From Bradyrhizobium sp. WBOS07 (GTDB lineage: Bacteria > Pseudomonadota > Alphaproteobacteria > Rhizobiales > Xanthobacteraceae): DNA of 64,000 bases. The notes below the pieces were generated by a model, which saw only the letters and a program-made list of their open reading frames with translations, was not told the origin of the DNA and ran no database searches. Every line of letters begins with the position of its first letter. The stretch's first letter is position 1. Where the stretch lies: contig NZ_CP029008.1 in the NCBI RefSeq assembly GCF_024585165.1, positions 1,426,001 to 1,490,000 on the forward strand. The letters are read 5' to 3'. The position numbers and the translations under genes were made by a program. Positions 16,614 to 25,671 of the stretch are shown here, one piece after another.

Positions 16614-18440
<1,827 letters not shown>

Positions 18441-18550
18441 GAGTGAGCTTCTTTGCGGTCGAACAATGGGTTAAGCGCGATCTCGCCGGTCAGACCGGGA
18501 CCTCTTCTCGAAACAACGCTGGAAGACTGGAAACGGGGCGCTTTCCGCCC

Positions 18551-18580
18551 AAAAAGGAAGCCCGGCCATCTTGACCGGGC
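18551..18580 (-). terminator. Probable rho-independent terminator of the Lgt-like/radical SAM operon
   Basis: On the minus strand GCCCGG (18580-18575) pairs with CCGGGC (18565-18560), extended by partial pairing in the loop arms, then runs into CTTCCTTTTT. It lies about 100 bp past the stop at 18679 and before typA, so it should separate the two units. Confidence 0.55.
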
Positions 18581-18678
18581 GCCCTGCGCGTTGCGGCGCA
18601 ATATATGCAAAAACCGCCAAAAAACAATGCGTTCTTTGGGCCTTGGTTGACTGAATTTTGCCCGGGAATCTCCGGGGC

Positions 18679-18969
18679 TTAGCGATCGTTGCGGGCCGGC
18701 GGGGCCTTTCGCCCCATGATGGCCGCCCAGATCAGGACGACGCCTCCGATGCCGATGACCAGCCCCAAGAACACCAGCGACGCCATGTCGGAGGGGATCC
18801 GGCCACCGTCGACCACCGCCATTCCGCCGAACAGGAGCGCGCACAGCCCCGGCAACAGCATGAAGATCCCGGCGATCGCCATCAACGCGGTCAGGCAGCC
18901 GCTGCGCTTTTCCTTCGGGGCAGGAGGCGGCCCCGAAGGAGCCGGCGGCGGTGGGTCGCTGATGCTCAT
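18679..18969 (-). CDS. Small two-TM membrane protein, last gene of the Lgt-like/radical SAM operon
   Basis: This is a 96-residue protein with a Pro-rich cytosolic N-terminus (residues 5-20), SGCLTALMAIAGIFMLLPGL beginning the first membrane segment (25-50), and a second segment at 63-86, ending in a basic tail. I recognise the general CLTALM...LLPGLC pattern from other small uncharacterised proteobacterial proteins but know no function. Its ATG (18967-18969) overlaps the stop of the radical SAM gene as ATGA, so it is probably coupled to it. It may scaffold or anchor the enzymes, which is inference. Confidence 0.75.
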   Translation of the reverse strand: MSISDPPPPAPSGPPPAPKEKRSGCLTALMAIAGIFMLLPGLCALLFGGMAVVDGGRIPSDMASLVFLGLVIGIGGVVLIWAAIMGRKAPPARNDR

Positions 18970-20396
18970 GCCTGCATGACTCCTTCGCTTGCCTGCGCGG
19001 CCAGCGCCGCGCGGATGCCGTCGATCTTTCCGTTGCGGTAGAACAGATTGTAGGTGTCGAACGGAATGATCGCGCCCTGCTCCGTCACGAAATGGATGCA
19101 GCTGCGCTTGACGTTGCCGACGCAGAAATTGAAGCGGTCGAGAAACTGCACGATGGTGACGCGGAAGACGTTCTCGTAGGACAGCCCGTCCGGCACCTGA
19201 AAGCTCGGCAGGCAGCACAGGAGTTCGCAGACGCGCTCGCTCGTGTTCAAAGGCCCCGACGACAGCGAGAACAGATCGACGAATTTTTCCCGCAGCATCG
19301 GATATTTCTCCGGGCTGATGGTGTTGGGCATCACCGCGACCAGCTGTTCCTGCGGGATCAGCGAAGTCAGCGGCAGCACCTTCTCGCCGTTGCGCAGGCC
19401 ATAGCCGATCGAGATGCTCTCGGGATTGCAGGGCAGCGGAATCATGTCCTTGTCGCCGAACACGCCGGTCTCGATCACGCGCTTGCGGATCTCCGACAGC
19501 ATGATGCGGTCGGTCTTGCCGTCGAAATTGTCGTTGCGCCCGGCGTCCTGTACCGGCTGCAGCGTGACGCCGCGCACGCATTTCCAGGTGAGTGCGTGGC
19601 GGACGATGTCGCCGATCTCGGCATCGTTGACGCCGCGCTTGATGGTCGCGACCAGCGTGGTCGACACGCCGTAATGCTCGAGATTTTCCAGCGCCTGCTG
19701 GCGGATCCTGCGCAAATCCGCGCCGCGCAGATCGACCAGCGCGTCGCGCTGCAGCGAATCGAACTGGAGATAGACCTCCAGCCCGCGCTTGTTCTCGGCC
19801 AGCCGCGCCACGAAATCCTTGTCGCGCGCGACGCGCAGGCCGTTGGTGTTGATCATGACGTGGCGGATCGGACGTGCGCGCACCGCGTCCAGGATCGCGA
19901 AGAAATCCGGATGCAGCGTCGGCTCGCCGCCGGAGATCTGCACGAGATCGGGCTCGCCCTCGCTTGCGACCAGCGCGTTCAGCATCTTCTCGATCGTTGC
20001 GAGCGGGGTGAATTTGGTTCGTGCCGGCGAGGATTCCGCAAAGCAGACCGGGCAGGTCAGGTTGCAGTGCTCGGTGATCTCGATCAACGCCAGGCACGAA
20101 TGCTGCTCGTGGTCGGCGCAGAGCCCGCAATCATAGGGACAGCCGAATTCGGTGCGCTGCTGGAATTGCAGCGGCCGATCGCCGGGCTTGATGAAATCCT
20201 TGCACAAGCGCCAATAGGCGGCATCGGTCGACACCAGCGTGGACTGGACGCCGTGCTCCCTGCAGCGCTTTTCGTACCAGACCTCGTTGTCCTGGATCTG
20301 GATCTTGGCCGGCACCAGCTGCAGGCAGGTTTCGCAGAGAGATTGGGTCTGGCCCCAGAAAATATAGGGACGCGACTTACGCAACGGCGCGTTCAT
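18966..20396 (-). CDS. Class D-type radical SAM enzyme of the MJ0619/Tes family
   Basis: At 476 residues it matches the architecture of MJ0619 and tetraether-lipid synthase (Tes). An N-terminal Cys-rich region has SLCETC (20-24), KRCREHG (Cys45) and GCPYDCGLC (86-93) followed by His96 and Cys101. Next is the radical SAM CxxxCxxC in HCNLTCPVCFA (Cys111, 115, 118), then ISGGEPTLHPD for SAM binding, INTNG, and VYLQFDS. A C-terminal Cys-containing region (VKRSCIHFVTEQGAIIPFD) follows. The family removes H from, or joins, unactivated carbons of lipids or cofactors. It lies between, and overlaps, an Lgt-like gene upstream and a small membrane gene downstream. A MoaA-like or peptide-maturase role is the less likely alternative. 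Confidence 0.85.
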   Translation of the reverse strand: MNAPLRKSRPYIFWGQTQSLCETCLQLVPAKIQIQDNEVWYEKRCREHGVQSTLVSTDAAYWRLCKDFIKPGDRPLQFQQRTEFGCPYDCGLCADHEQHSCLALIEITEHCNLTCPVCFAESSPARTKFTPLATIEKMLNALVASEGEPDLVQISGGEPTLHPDFFAILDAVRARPIRHVMINTNGLRVARDKDFVARLAENKRGLEVYLQFDSLQRDALVDLRGADLRRIRQQALENLEHYGVSTTLVATIKRGVNDAEIGDIVRHALTWKCVRGVTLQPVQDAGRNDNFDGKTDRIMLSEIRKRVIETGVFGDKDMIPLPCNPESISIGYGLRNGEKVLPLTSLIPQEQLVAVMPNTISPEKYPMLREKFVDLFSLSSGPLNTSERVCELLCCLPSFQVPDGLSYENVFRVTIVQFLDRFNFCVGNVKRSCIHFVTEQGAIIPFDTYNLFYRNGKIDGIRAALAAQASEGVMQA

Positions 20397-21109
20397 GCAA
20401 GTAACTCACTTTGCAAGCGTCTCGCTTTGGACGCCGTCGCCAGCATGACGCCGGCGTAGAGCAGGATGGACAACGACAGCAGGTGAAACAGGGTGAAGGG
20501 GCCGATCAGCGTGCCGTAGGGCTTGAGGAATTCCCATAGGAAGCGTTGCGCTCCATAATAGGCGAGCGCCAGGTAGAAACCATTGGTGATCGTGAACGCG
20601 TTCCGGTTCAAGACCGCCAGCACATAGACGAGCGCGAACAGGGCCATGGCCGCGCTCTCGTAGAGCTGGACGGGATGGCGCAGAACGCCGTCGCCGAAAT
20701 CATGGCCGAAAGGCAGCGTGGTCGGCGTGCCATAGGTGAAGTCGTCGAGGCCTGCGAAATAGCAGCCGAGCCGGCCGATCGCGATGCCGACGGCCAGCGG
20801 CAGCGCAAACCGCGCGCCGGTGCGCAAGGTGATGCCGGCGGTCCATTTGTAGAGCTCGATCGCCACGATGCCGCCGGCCAGCGCGCCCTCGACCGAGCGC
20901 GCAATGCCGCTCTGACCCGACAGCCACAGATTGGCGGAGCCGAACAGATAGGCGCCGAGGCCCGCGCCGAACACCAGAGCGGCGATGTAGGGCAGCGCCG
21001 AGGATTGCGCCGGAAACCGCAAACCCCGTCGCGCCAGCCCGTAGGCGGCCGCGGCCGCCCCCAGCCACGCCAAGACGTCGAAGATGGTGTGAAGCAAAGC
21101 CCCGCTCAT
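20393..21109 (-). CDS. Prolipoprotein diacylglyceryl transferase (Lgt)-like membrane protein, diverged active site
   Basis: This 238-residue, multi-spanning inner-membrane protein is shorter than usual Lgt (about 280-290). The family signatures remain in altered form: GRLGCYFAG (112-120) replaces GRxGNFxNGE, RHPVQLYE (144-151) is conserved, and RFLWEFLKP (189-197) is the conserved C-terminal Arg/Glu helix. The loop normally carrying the essential His (SFHGGLLG) reads SVEGALAG, with Glu74. It therefore probably binds phospholipid but may not modify prolipoproteins. Start chosen at ATG 21107-21109; a TTG six codons earlier is possible. Its stop overlaps the radical SAM ATG as ATGA. Confidence 0.82.
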   Translation of the reverse strand: MSGALLHTIFDVLAWLGAAAAAYGLARRGLRFPAQSSALPYIAALVFGAGLGAYLFGSANLWLSGQSGIARSVEGALAGGIVAIELYKWTAGITLRTGARFALPLAVGIAIGRLGCYFAGLDDFTYGTPTTLPFGHDFGDGVLRHPVQLYESAAMALFALVYVLAVLNRNAFTITNGFYLALAYYGAQRFLWEFLKPYGTLIGPFTLFHLLSLSILLYAGVMLATASKARRLQSELLA

Positions 21110-21181
21110 GCCGGGGATACTAGCCAAGTTCCGGCCGCGCGGGATAGTGCGCCCGCGCGTCTTGTGCCGGGGAAGAACTCG

Positions 21182-21946
21182 CTACCCCGCCTCCCGCTCC
21201 TCGGTCGGGTAGACGCCGCGCAGCACCTCTTCGAAGTGCATCTTCACCGCGTCGTTGCAGAGGCAGGCGCGAAGCTTCAGGCCGTCGCGGTTGCGAACCA
21301 GGATCGATCCGCGCCGCGTGTCGAGAATCCGTTCGGCCTTGAATGATTGAAGCACGCGGCTGGCATAGGAGCGGCCGACGCCGAGCAGCGTCGCGAGCTG
21401 CTCGTGGGTCAGCGGCACGCTGCTCTCGTCGCCGGTCCGCTCCATCGCCGCCAGAATCCATTTGGCGGTCCGCTGCTCGATCGAATGGATCGCGTTGCAG
21501 GCGGTCGACTGGAAGATCTGCGCCAGCATGCAATCGGCATAGCGGGCAAAGATGTTGCGCAGCGAGGCCGAGCGCAGCTTGGCCGCTTCCAGCTTGGCGA
21601 CATGAACGCGCGCGAACGGCCCGCCGAATTTCACGCAGATCCGGGTATAGGCCGGCAGGTAGCCCTCGCTGACGATACCGCCCACCGCGCCTTCGCGGCC
21701 GACCAGGATGGTTTCGACGTCGCGGCCGTCCTCGTTCGGAACGAGAAAGGTCGCGAGCGACGGTCCGCAGGGGAAGTGGACGACCTGGACGTCATCGCCG
21801 GGATTGTAGAGCAGCTCGCTTGCCGCGCAGTCCTCGACGGAGACGTGAGGTGCGAGCAGAGCGTAGTCGGCTTGGCTCAAACGCCGCAGCAGATTGTTGG
21901 CCGGCCGGCTCTCGACCTCGATCGTCTTGTTGATGCGCGCGTCCAT
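21182..21946 (-). CDS. Crp/Fnr family transcriptional regulator
   Basis: This is a 254-residue regulator: an N-terminal cyclic-nucleotide-binding-fold beta barrel (about 25-145), a long dimer helix, and a C-terminal winged helix containing LTHEQLATLLGVGRSYASRV (given in part) as the recognition HTH. No Fnr-type N-terminal Cys cluster is visible, so it is not an obvious oxygen sensor. The ligand pocket also lacks a clear cAMP PRARTS motif. It is 72 bp upstream of, and on the same strand as, the Lgt-like/radical SAM operon and may be its regulator or first gene. Confidence 0.88.
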   Translation of the reverse strand: MDARINKTIEVESRPANNLLRRLSQADYALLAPHVSVEDCAASELLYNPGDDVQVVHFPCGPSLATFLVPNEDGRDVETILVGREGAVGGIVSEGYLPAYTRICVKFGGPFARVHVAKLEAAKLRSASLRNIFARYADCMLAQIFQSTACNAIHSIEQRTAKWILAAMERTGDESSVPLTHEQLATLLGVGRSYASRVLQSFKAERILDTRRGSILVRNRDGLKLRACLCNDAVKMHFEEVLRGVYPTEEREAG

Positions 21947-22532: not shown

Positions 22533-24074
22533 TCAGCTCTGCTTCGGATCGAGCGTCGTCGACCACAGCGCGACATCGGCGCGGTCGCGCAACGTCACAA
22601 TCATCTGGCCAGAGGTCCCGTCGATCTTGACGTGACCGAAGAACTGCATGCCCGCCGAGGGCGGCAGGTTCTGGCTGTCCTTGCCCGGCGCCTTGACGAA
22701 GCGCACCTCGGGTCCAAAGGTGTTGTCGAGCGCGTTCGGACCGAATGTGCCGGCATGCAGCGGCCCCGACACGAATTCCCAGAATGGCTCGAAATCCTGG
22801 AACTGCGCCTTGTTCGGATGGTAATAATGCGCGGCGGCGTAGTGCACGTCGGCGGTCAGCCACACCGTGTTGCTGATCGGCGCCATCTTGATGAAGCGCA
22901 GGATGTCGGCGATCTCGAGCTCGCGGCCACGCACCGGACCGTCGCCTTGCGCGACGGCTTCCGAGCCGCCCTTCGAGGTGTCCGATACGATCAGGCCCAG
23001 CGGCATGTCGGAGGCGATCACCTTCCAGGTCGCGCGCGAATTGAGCAGGCCGCGCTTGAGCCAGGCGATCTGGTCCGGGCCAAGGAAATAGCTGGCGGGG
23101 CCGTAAGCGGTTTCGAGATTGGGGCCGTTCGCGCCGCGATAGCTGCGCTCGTCGAGCATGAACACGTCGAGATGCGGGCCATAGGAAATCTGGCGATAGA
23201 CCCGGCCGGGCTCATGGATGCTTTCGCGCAGCGGATACATCTCGTGGAAGGCGCGCGCCCCGCGCGCGGCGAGCAGCGCGATGTCGCGCTCCTTGTAGGC
23301 CGCCGGCAGCTCTTTCGAGGGCGACCAATTGTTGGTCACTTCGTGATCGTCCCACTGCACGAAGATCGGCACCTCGGCATTGAAGGCGCGCAGATTGTCG
23401 TCGGTGAGATTGTATTTGTGCGCGGCGCGGTACTCGTCGAGCGTCTCGGCGACCTTGGCCTTCTCGGGGATGGTGACGTTCTTCCAGATCTTGCCGTCGG
23501 CGAGCTTCACCTCGGATGCAATCGGGCCGTCGGCGTAGATTGTGTCGCCGGAATGCAGGAAGAAGTCCGGCCGGTGCTTGCGCATCGTCGCGAAGGTAAC
23601 CATGCCACCGTCGTCGGGATTGATGCCCCAGCCCTGGCCGGCGACGTCTCCGCCCCAGACGAAGCTGACGTCGCGGCGGTCGGCCGGCGCGGTGCGGAAA
23701 CGGCCGACGACCGCCTCGCCCTCGACCGCGCTGTGCGCGAGATCGCGGAAGCGGACGCGGTAAAAGATGTCCTGGCCGCCCGGCAGGTTCTCGATCAGCA
23801 TCTTTGCGGTGAAGTCGCTCTCGGGGAGCGCCGCGATCGGCGGCAGCGCGCGGGCATCCCTGAACGTGTCAGTCGTCGCCACCTCGACCAGCATCTGCGC
23901 CGGCCGGTCGGTGCGCGCCCACACCACGCCGCCATCGACCGTGACGTCGCCTGACTGTACGCCGTGAGTGACCCTTGGCCGATCGGCCGCGCGCGACAGG
24001 TAAGGCATCGCGATGGTGCCGAGCGCACCCGCGCCGGTGGCGAGGAAGCGGCGACGGGAGAATTTGATGTTCAT
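22533..24074 (-). CDS. phoD: PhoD-type alkaline phosphatase/phosphodiesterase (Tat-exported)
   Basis: The 513-residue protein begins with FSRRRFLATGAGALG, a clear Tat signal, then a fibronectin-like N-domain (about 35-135) and the PhoD catalytic domain. Metal-ligand motifs are FVWGGDVAGQGWG, FFLHSGDTIYADGP, VQWDDHEVTNNW and TADVHYAAAHYY. PhoD enzymes use Fe/Ca to hydrolyse phosphomonoesters and diesters in the periplasm, supplying phosphate. It is downstream of the TAXI gene across a repeat at 24097. Confidence 0.9.
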   Translation of the reverse strand: MNIKFSRRRFLATGAGALGTIAMPYLSRAADRPRVTHGVQSGDVTVDGGVVWARTDRPAQMLVEVATTDTFRDARALPPIAALPESDFTAKMLIENLPGGQDIFYRVRFRDLAHSAVEGEAVVGRFRTAPADRRDVSFVWGGDVAGQGWGINPDDGGMVTFATMRKHRPDFFLHSGDTIYADGPIASEVKLADGKIWKNVTIPEKAKVAETLDEYRAAHKYNLTDDNLRAFNAEVPIFVQWDDHEVTNNWSPSKELPAAYKERDIALLAARGARAFHEMYPLRESIHEPGRVYRQISYGPHLDVFMLDERSYRGANGPNLETAYGPASYFLGPDQIAWLKRGLLNSRATWKVIASDMPLGLIVSDTSKGGSEAVAQGDGPVRGRELEIADILRFIKMAPISNTVWLTADVHYAAAHYYHPNKAQFQDFEPFWEFVSGPLHAGTFGPNALDNTFGPEVRFVKAPGKDSQNLPPSAGMQFFGHVKIDGTSGQMIVTLRDRADVALWSTTLDPKQS

Positions 24075-24225: not shown

Positions 24226-25671
24226 TCAGGCGTTGCCGGCGGCCCGGAACTGCGTGCCCGCGCGCTGCAGGTTCGGCGGCAGGCTGAACAGCACCGCCTT
24301 GCGGTCGGCAACGGCGGAGTGGAACTGATCCAGCGCGATGTTGAAGGCGGTGAGCGCGCCTTCCTCGATCGCGCCGTGATCGTAGCAGCGCAGCGTGTCG
24401 CGCAGGATGTCGTCGGCTTCGGCCTGCATCTGGTCGAGCTCTTCGGTCGTCTCGCACTTGCGCGCGGCCGCGATCATGTCGAGCAGGCGCTCGCGCTGAT
24501 GATTGTTGCTGTCGCGCTCATCCTTTTTCAGGTAGCCCGCGAACCAGGCGCCGACCGAGCCCATGGCCGACAGCGCCATCAGGCTCCACCAGATGTAGTC
24601 GCTGTATTTGTCGAGGAAGGTCTTTTCCTCGCCGTCGACGAAGGCGGCCGCACCCGGATGCACCGGGATCACCGCATCCTTGTCGGTATCGGGCGTTTCG
24701 ATCTTCGCCGCGAGCGGGAATTCGGTCACCAATTGCTGACGCACGGCGAACAGCTGGCGCGTGAACGCCGCGATGGTGGTTTCGGACACGCCTTTGCGCG
24801 CCACGACGTGGTGCGAGAAGCCGATGGTCTTGATCTCGTCCTCCGGGCGGGCGGGCGAGCCGCCATAGGTGCCGGCGGGAATCTCGGACGCCTCGTAGAT
24901 CGGGTGGTTCTGCGCGATGGCATCCGCCGAATCGATGGCGATGAAGCTGGGCGCGCCGAAATCCTTGCTGGAGGCGGCGATCGCATCCGCCGTGATCTTG
25001 CTGTTGACGGGGCCCGCGGCGAGATAGACATCGGCCTTCTGGCCCTTGATCGCCTCGGCAACTTCGTTGGCCGGAAATTGCACGATCTCGACCTTGGCTG
25101 GATCGACGCCGTATTGCTGCAGGATCACCTTGAGCAGATTGACGTTGGCCTGGGTGCGGCCGACCACGCCGACGCGATGGCCGGCGAGCTGCGAGATCCT
25201 GGTGATCTTCGCGCCGCGCTTCTTGCCTTTGCCCGGGACGGACCACAGCACCACGACGTTCTTGCGCAGGGTCGCGACCGCCTGCGCGTTCTTGGGCACA
25301 TCGACGTCGCCGCGCACGATGGCGAGATCGACCTTGCCTTCCGCGAGCGCATTGGCGCTGGCCGTGGCGCCGTCGGTCTGAATCGGCCGCAGTCGCACCT
25401 GGCCCTTGCTCTGGCTGAAGGCCTGCGTCAGCGCCTGCACGACCTTGACGTCGTCGCTGTTGGCGGGGCCGACCGCGATCTTCAGCGTCACCGGACGCAT
25501 CGCGAAGTAATAGCCGCCGGCGAGCGTGCCGACGATCGCAAGCACGAATGCGAGAGACACCAGGGCCGTCTTCCGCGCCGCAGATCGCGGCGAAGGCGGA
25601 GGGGGCGCTTCGGCCAGGTCCAATCCCCCGGTCATCGATCTCCCAAACAGGCGCTTGAGGCTCAGTTTCAT
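24226..25671 (-). CDS. TAXI-family TRAP solute receptor with two membrane anchors
   Basis: The 481-residue protein has an uncleaved-looking N-terminal membrane helix (about 36-57), a periplasmic TAXI receptor domain (62-350; VTLKIAVGPANSDDVKVVQA is its start and the SQLAGHRVGVVG strand is typical), then a second helix (359-380) and a 100-residue, acidic, coiled cytosolic tail. Standard TAXI receptors are about 320 residues, soluble, and sit beside a fused TRAP permease. None is here. It may signal substrate presence instead of feeding transport. Ligand unknown. Confidence 0.8.
   Translation of the reverse strand: MKLSLKRLFGRSMTGGLDLAEAPPPPSPRSAARKTALVSLAFVLAIVGTLAGGYYFAMRPVTLKIAVGPANSDDVKVVQALTQAFSQSKGQVRLRPIQTDGATASANALAEGKVDLAIVRGDVDVPKNAQAVATLRKNVVVLWSVPGKGKKRGAKITRISQLAGHRVGVVGRTQANVNLLKVILQQYGVDPAKVEIVQFPANEVAEAIKGQKADVYLAAGPVNSKITADAIAASSKDFGAPSFIAIDSADAIAQNHPIYEASEIPAGTYGGSPARPEDEIKTIGFSHHVVARKGVSETTIAAFTRQLFAVRQQLVTEFPLAAKIETPDTDKDAVIPVHPGAAAFVDGEEKTFLDKYSDYIWWSLMALSAMGSVGAWFAGYLKKDERDSNNHQRERLLDMIAAARKCETTEELDQMQAEADDILRDTLRCYDHGAIEEGALTAFNIALDQFHSAVADRKAVLFSLPPNLQRAGTQFRAAGNA

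Follow-up and report, generated by a model that had tools for sequence, protein, structure and literature searches.

In bacteria, lipids are understood to be attached to membrane proteins mainly by one fixed route, Lgt-Lsp-Lnt, with cysteines in a lipobox of the consensus [LVI][ASTVI][GAS]C, and Lnt is fed by phospholipids through an acyl-enzyme thioester on its active-site cysteine. For Lgt of Escherichia coli, the parts of PMC4728403 and PMC8689077 available to us describe Arg143, Tyr235, Arg239, Glu243, His103, and Asn146 as residues that matter and Glu202 as the exception, E202Q being active and E202A/L partially so. A second family with lipid substrates is the radical S-adenosylmethionine (SAM) enzyme tetraether synthase, Tes (GDGT-MAS); its bacterial homologues are noted without a shown function in the portions seen of PMC8941075, PMC9433317, and PMC11868695, and the first and last of these read them as possible makers of branched tetraethers. 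Here, we describe a 2.5-kb three-gene cassette of Bradyrhizobium sp. WBOS07 that couples a variant of each family to a small membrane protein. It lies in a stretch of 64,000 nucleotides (contig NZ_CP029008.1, positions 1,426,001 to 1,490,000), which we call the window and whose own numbering is used below. The parts are variants of known families, and the whole system is undescribed in the literature searched: no description of the Lgt-like/radical SAM pair was found in the open-licence literature, and the sections seen of PMC8939145, PMC11186832, and PMC13188914 contain no mention of such a pair.

Our leading but tentative reading is that the cassette is a self-contained private pathway that loads a phospholipid-derived group onto small membrane proteins carrying a Gly-x-Cys (GxC) motif, the chemistry being deduced from residues and gene context.

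Gene content and inheritance of the cassette

All three genes are on the minus strand. The first (20393..21109, ATG at 21109) is an open reading frame (ORF) for a Lgt-like membrane protein of 238 amino acids matching Pfam LGT, the second (18966..20396) encodes a 476-residue radical SAM enzyme of the Tes/TrsS superfamily, and the third (18679..18969) encodes the proposed acceptor, a 96-residue protein with a proline-rich N-terminus and two hydrophobic segments, the first of which ends in GxC. ATGA overlaps link the Lgt-like stop to the radical SAM start (20393..20396) and the radical SAM stop to the start of the small gene (18966..18969), confirming in the sequence what a previous sequence-only reading of this locus had described, including the third gene as a two-transmembrane (two-TM) protein. 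The host genome (6.73 Mb, single contig) has one match each for the radical SAM protein and the small protein and two Pfam LGT matches, the second being the canonical lgt. Repeats inside the cassette belong to short families only and read as chance.

The coupling of these enzyme types in one unit, singled out in the earlier reading as the striking feature of the locus, is real, very tight, and old. Far from being rarely found together, the radical SAM and Lgt-like genes each occur in 12 of 398 Pseudomonadota genomes, which are the identical genomes, with both genes on the same contig, in 7 genera; a Tes-type zinc ribbon scores above its cut-off in the same 12, a thirteenth match staying below it. 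Among 98 Bradyrhizobium genomes, the Lgt-like gene is present in 40 and the radical SAM gene in 41, the same 40 carrying both, while the 41st (G653) has only a 37% identical relative followed by a methyltransferase-like gene. In 240 Alphaproteobacteria genomes, the radical SAM gene is found in 4, each time with the Lgt-like gene adjacent or within the distance of one small gene; in one of them (G201), the radical SAM protein is 30% identical and two small genes stand between the pair. Twelve further genomes of this sample have weak Lgt-like matches (E 1e-10 to 8e-7), in all likelihood to canonical Lgt. G000 and some other genomes are common to the class, phylum, and genus samples, and these counts are confined to Pseudomonadota, other phyla being known from plasmid records. 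The small gene was checked in the fetched loci, not in all of the 12 or 40 genomes. In 80 named loci (L004-L083), the Lgt-like gene adjoins the radical SAM gene in 79, the exception (L067) being a contig with only 14 bases of sequence ahead of the radical SAM gene; similarity identifies a small-gene relative in 70, and typA is present in 79.

Since homology to cassette-free relatives stops and resumes around the cassette, the unit gained or lost is, judging from the alignments, the three genes as one block (18683..21195), in two of four cases exactly. One such relative (L133) aligns to window positions 18011-18682, continues with a 74-base stretch of its own, and aligns again from 21196 onward; in L136, homology breaks at 18648 and resumes at 21203, in L135 it breaks at the same position and resumes weakly at 21203, and in L134 it ends at 18648, with no match for the far side in the compared stretch. 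The three cassette genes have no match in the stretches fetched from four pair-free Bradyrhizobium genomes of the phylum sample.

The shared typA neighbourhood of the 80 named loci might suggest simple synteny. This explanation is rejected because distant Pseudomonadota loci retain the pair amid different flanking genes, as do Persicobacter and actinobacterial loci. In G201, the order is radical SAM, small, small, Lgt-like, and an ICMT-family protein. The pair was also found in plasmid records of Persicobacter (Bacteroidota) and of Mycobacterium branderi, M. avium, and Nonomuraea (Actinomycetota). In Persicobacter, the Lgt-like and radical SAM genes are followed by a small gene that begins within an overlap with the stop of the radical SAM gene and encodes 59 residues ending in GTGICGSLLS. 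On the Mycobacterium and Nonomuraea plasmids, the Lgt-like and radical SAM genes are separated by one or two small genes whose products carry GxCTG[LI]NP close to their C-terminus. Altogether, 10 plasmid records have a radical SAM match, of which 4 have the Lgt-like gene and the remaining 6 have no Lgt-like match; neighbourhoods were fetched for 7 of the 10, and in the 3 opened among the Lgt-free records a methyltransferase gene follows the radical SAM gene. In a tree of 23 radical SAM proteins with one partial Tes sequence as the outgroup (L004, L069, L072, L075, L077, and L079 being left out), the Lgt-partnered proteins form one clade (ultrafast bootstrap 95) apart from the methyltransferase-partnered ones.

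The Lgt-like protein and its candidate acceptors

The Lgt-like protein scores 61.9 bits against Pfam LGT (cut-off 24.9), which supports the Lgt fold, and its resemblance to a phospholipid-binding Lgt, noted before, holds for the lipid-handling residues. Among 25 aligned relatives, the E. coli Lgt pocket residues have their equivalents at Arg143 in 24 (Lys in one), at Tyr235 and Arg239 in all 25, and at Glu202 and Glu243 in 24 each. The resemblance does not extend to catalysis: the essential His103 of the HGGL motif is kept in none of the 25, Glu, Ala, Leu, Met, Val, or Ile standing in its place, whereas the canonical Lgt of the same host retains this His. Asn146 is replaced by Cys in 25/25, which in the window is Cys116 (codon at 20762..20764, minus strand) in a GRxGC motif present in 120/120 database homologues among the matches listed, all of them close ones. 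The Lgt signature motif GRLGNFINGELWG, which includes Asn146 and Glu151, is absent, with Glu151 in 0/25, and Tyr26 is likewise replaced in 25/25 and Asn149 in 24/25. Further differences from E. coli Lgt (PDB ID 5AZB) are that the gene is a second copy beside a canonical one and that GxC, the motif of the proposed acceptor, does not match a lipobox. From these residues, the protein should not be an ordinary Lgt.

The third gene, left as a bystander in the earlier reading, shows a pattern like that of a dedicated acceptor: tandem copies, fast evolution, and a kept GxC. The motif in the window is Gly41-Leu42-Cys43 (18841..18849, minus strand). The protein has no Pfam family above the cut-off, and five small proteins tested against NCBIfam gave no model above the cut-off; a holin-like identity (Phage_holin_3_6) was rejected at 20.1 bits against a cut-off of 28.4. 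When 14 distant loci were scanned for two-TM ORFs without a motif filter, GxC proteins appeared in all 14, with one to five per locus and often in tandem; the scan also picked up Lgt-like genes, shadow frames, and a single paralogue without the Cys. In a second scan of 105 loci, mostly from Bradyrhizobium and with [GA]xC as a filter, the motif ends the first TM segment in 134/163 near same-strand ORFs of this shape, compared with 0/15 near opposite-strand and 2/21 far ORFs, and at least one such ORF is present in 87/105 loci. ORFs were started at the first ATG, GTG, or TTG and may be over-long, and the small-gene counts are ORF counts.

The 36 members set out from the scan, plasmid, and G201 loci have GxC in 35 cases and GALC in one. 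Flanking charges place the Cys end on the extracytoplasmic side in 26 of 36 members, in a set from which the GALC member was left out and to which the Persicobacter member was added. One member from M. branderi has 68 database relatives, none of them functionally named and the named ones mostly mycobacterial, and an unanchored alignment shows the Cys invariant in 68/68, together with about 15 other invariant positions, within a strongly kept C-terminal stretch. Of five genes compared, the small gene has the lowest median identity, 72% (n=70) versus 92% for the radical SAM gene and 83% for the Lgt-like gene. Four features make the small proteins the likely acceptors of a lipid-derived group: the predicted location of the Cys, its conservation, the presence of several rapidly diverging copies, and the phospholipid pocket retained in the neighbouring protein.

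In the proposed pathway, a cytoplasmic Tes/TrsS-like radical SAM enzyme would activate a carbon that is otherwise unreactive, with a lipid tail as its most likely site, and because the enzyme should be cytoplasmic, it would most likely prepare the lipid in the inner leaflet. The Lgt-like protein may then bind the phospholipid in the pocket formed by the equivalents of Arg143, Tyr235, Arg239, and Glu243 and hand over a group derived from the lipid to the cysteine of Gly-x-Cys, which is predicted at the outer end of the TM helix, the place of a lipobox cysteine. Because the His103 base is lost and Asn146 is now an invariant Cys, this transfer probably departs from the Lgt route, and the loss of the His together with the gain of the Cys suggests a covalent Cys intermediate. 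The most economical chemistry would be a two-step acyl transfer via an enzyme-bound thioester on Cys116, as in Lnt, although the analogy to Lnt is one of chemistry only, the folds being unrelated. The analysis itself shows the cassette, the joint inheritance of its genes, the exchanged residues, and the GxC family with its likely topology, whereas we infer all of these chemical steps, as well as the molecule acted on by the radical SAM enzyme. With an Lgt fold that has lost its catalytic His and gained an invariant Cys, linked to a radical SAM enzyme and dedicated-looking small proteins, a free-living bacterium offers a direct test for a second lipidation chemistry.

Several observations weigh against this pathway. 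The most serious concerns the side of the membrane: the radical SAM enzyme should be cytoplasmic and the Cys is predicted outside, so that the two enzymes can hardly act on the same atom, and the outside position of the Cys poses a problem should the small protein be the direct target of the radical SAM enzyme. Furthermore, the absence of His103 is just as compatible with there being no cysteine lipidation at all, and the GxC motif is not a lipobox, the window sequence reading L-P-G-L-C and the 35 GxC members having mostly Leu at position -1 (17/35) and Pro or Ser at -3 (22/35). The topology by charge is tied in 6 of the 36 members and reversed in 4. The presence of the Cys in 71/71 sequences of the proteobacterial alignment results from selection, as [GA]xC was a filter of the scan. 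Of the 105 loci, 18 have no hit; this number includes two that were passed over, some with short or truncated sequence, and at least three (L083, L098, and L103) whose genes were seen otherwise but did not pass the filter. A tandem paralogue at L076 (6137-6811) lacks the Cys at this position, the member at L055 (9719-9958) is the one with GALC, and 10 of the 80 named loci have no small gene by similarity to that of the window, though 9 of these do carry a GxC ORF in the TM scans. The radical SAM proteins of G201 and of the Actinomycetota group together on long branches, with their exact placement uncertain.

Small, repeated, and variable proteins encoded beside one radical SAM enzyme are the usual layout of modified-peptide systems. 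The radical SAM enzyme might accordingly modify the small protein directly, for example by a thioether or C-C cross-link at GxC, before or during its insertion, with the Lgt-like protein as a non-transferase receptor or flippase-like partner. The invariant Cys among the relatives of the mycobacterial member and the loss of His103 fit such a role, but the Cys is predicted on the outer side in most members, the conserved phospholipid pocket would be needless for a mere receptor, and the closest structure to the radical SAM enzyme is by far that of a lipid enzyme, Tes, a likeness in fold rather than in function. We regard direct modification of the peptide as improbable.

The radical SAM enzyme between Tes and TrsS

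The second protein of the cassette consists of the Pfam domains Radical_SAM and Zn_ribbon_HMPTM. The closest solved structure by sequence is the Methanocaldococcus jannaschii tetraether synthase (PDB ID 7TOL, E 3.7e-59), and Tes is also the closest by far among the matches listed by Foldseek, which indicates the fold and not the function. As the AlphaFold model is of middling quality (mean predicted local distance difference test score, pLDDT, 64.2), no pocket was read from it. The likeness to Tes includes the rubredoxin-type N-terminal site (25/25 relatives), the N-terminal auxiliary cluster (22/25), and the CxxxCxxC radical SAM motif (25/25), all of which are present in the window protein.

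The earlier assignment to a Tes-type family agrees with the closest structure, whereas Tes proper is rejected on score and residues. Against the NCBIfam Tes model NF045702, the protein reaches 262.7 bits with a cut-off of 450, and the four cassette relatives scanned also stay below this cut-off (269 bits for L106, 285 for L121, 178 for L098, and 137 for L125). In place of Met439 and Tyr459 of Tes, the window protein has Val416 and Phe436 in the alignment, the numbering being derived by offset from the Cys numbers in PMC9433317; the part of that paper available to us describes both residues as completely conserved in 1000 archaeal homologues and the M439A variant as remaining active. The cysteines of the C-terminal domain are changed, and two additional ones, Cys101 (codon at 20094..20096, minus strand; Ile in Tes) and Cys323 (19428..19430, minus strand; Ser in Tes), are found in 25/25 relatives and in 3/3 methyltransferase-partnered TrsS-like relatives. 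The top-scoring NCBIfam model is that of TrsS (NF045646), a (seleno)protein of unknown function, at 301 bits against a cut-off of 490, which the three methyltransferase-partnered TrsS-like relatives also fail to reach (335, 352, and 339 bits).

These results bear on the pathway that had been put forward as the simplest idea, namely one for membrane lipids. In such a scheme, lipid tails would be coupled or alkylated by the radical SAM enzyme, a second lipid would receive a (di)acylglyceryl group from the Lgt-like protein, and the small protein would serve as an accessory subunit. Both enzyme families handle lipids, and such a pathway is possible, but the score below the Tes cut-off, the lost Met439 and Tyr459 equivalents, and the Cys101 and Cys323 shared with the TrsS-like group speak against it, and the repeated, fast-evolving small proteins with their kept Cys would be left unexplained. 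It is no longer the simplest reading, and we consider it rather unlikely.

From TrsS, the cassette differs in its partners, which are the Lgt-like protein and the small GxC protein instead of a methyltransferase, and in forming a separate clade; no DVU_1556-like methyltransferase was found in the cassette. A methyltransferase gene does follow the radical SAM gene at L122, L124, and L126, with DVU_1556 as the best match at L122 and L124 (136 and 130 bits, cut-off 155). These three loci are haloarchaeal and Mycolicibacterium vanbaalenii plasmids with TrsS-like genes, and the motif of the N-terminal auxiliary cluster is missing from the two haloarchaeal proteins. A further Tes/TrsS-like radical SAM gene of Bradyrhizobium, encoding a protein 36-37% identical, was observed in G653 (L138 6583-8954) and G701 (L139 6143-8505); it overlaps a methyltransferase-like gene, identified by eye, with no Lgt-like gene called nearby, and thiol-redox-like, MerR-like, and MerT/MerP-like sequences, also recognized by eye and not searched against families, are located in the vicinity.

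Such Lgt-free relatives raise the question of whether the GxC protein could be a stable subunit, either as a membrane anchor for the radical SAM enzyme or as a metal or disulfide partner of Cys116, with a small molecule as the product, as may be the case in the TrsS/TrsM-like relatives. The association of those relatives with a methyltransferase (DVU_1556 below its cut-off) and with thiol-redox or metal genes (by annotation or by eye), and the one invariant or near-invariant Cys borne by both partners, would agree with this arrangement. However, a subunit would not usually be encoded in one to five divergent copies at a locus, and the methyltransferase-partnered relatives, which have no Lgt-like gene seen nearby, fall outside the clade. 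A subunit role seems to us a poor fit, and lipidation of the small proteins stays the preferred reading.

If the lipidation reading is extended beyond this locus, the cassette would represent a new membrane-protein lipidation in at least three phyla, where a special lipid tail is produced by a radical SAM enzyme with Tes ancestry and is then installed on families of small GxC proteins by a Cys-based acyl- or alkyltransferase with the Lgt fold. In this full form, the proposal is doubtful; were it true, bacterial "Tes homologues" in Pseudomonadota would mark this lipidation system and not tetraether lipids. Every above-cut-off Tes-type zinc-ribbon protein in the 398 Pseudomonadota genomes (12/12) adjoins an Lgt-like gene, and the five cassette proteins scanned fall short of the Tes model, so that such matches should not be counted as tetraether genes unless their context is checked. 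This has a bearing on geochemistry, given the reading of bacterial Tes homologues as possible makers of branched tetraethers.

In another Bradyrhizobium genome (G685:C52:41429-42834), the radical SAM gene is split over two frames, which is a frameshift either of the genome or of the assembly.

Flanking genes and additional loci

The cassette is flanked downstream by typA/bipA (16614..18440, minus strand) and upstream by a gene for a Crp-like regulator (21182..21946, minus strand, Pfam HTH_Crp_2), both outside the cassette. Farther upstream are genes for a PhoD-type phosphatase (22533-24074, by Pfam) and for a 481-residue protein labelled TAXI by eye only (24226-25671). The PhoD and TAXI genes and typA are retained in all four pair-free Bradyrhizobium genomes. 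The Crp-like regulator was rejected as a fourth member of the cassette, as it is located beside typA in two of these four genomes; the third has fragments of it, and the fourth has no match. It was also not found in the 15 distant loci compared. On the Bradyrhizobium contig of L067 (14-5100), from a metagenome-assembled genome, a match to the regulator is located on the other side of the cassette, where it separates the small gene from typA.

In G201, the ICMT/PEMT-family membrane protein (L098 4935-5912) is encoded by a gene whose start overlaps the Lgt-like gene, and it may be an extra component acting on a cysteine or a lipid. Two ORFs at L103 (11267-11896 and 13323-13949), upstream of the Lgt-like gene and about 1.4 kb apart, have identical first 30 residues (MDDAKRKFLKQTAIAMTVAGGAVVTIPFIS).

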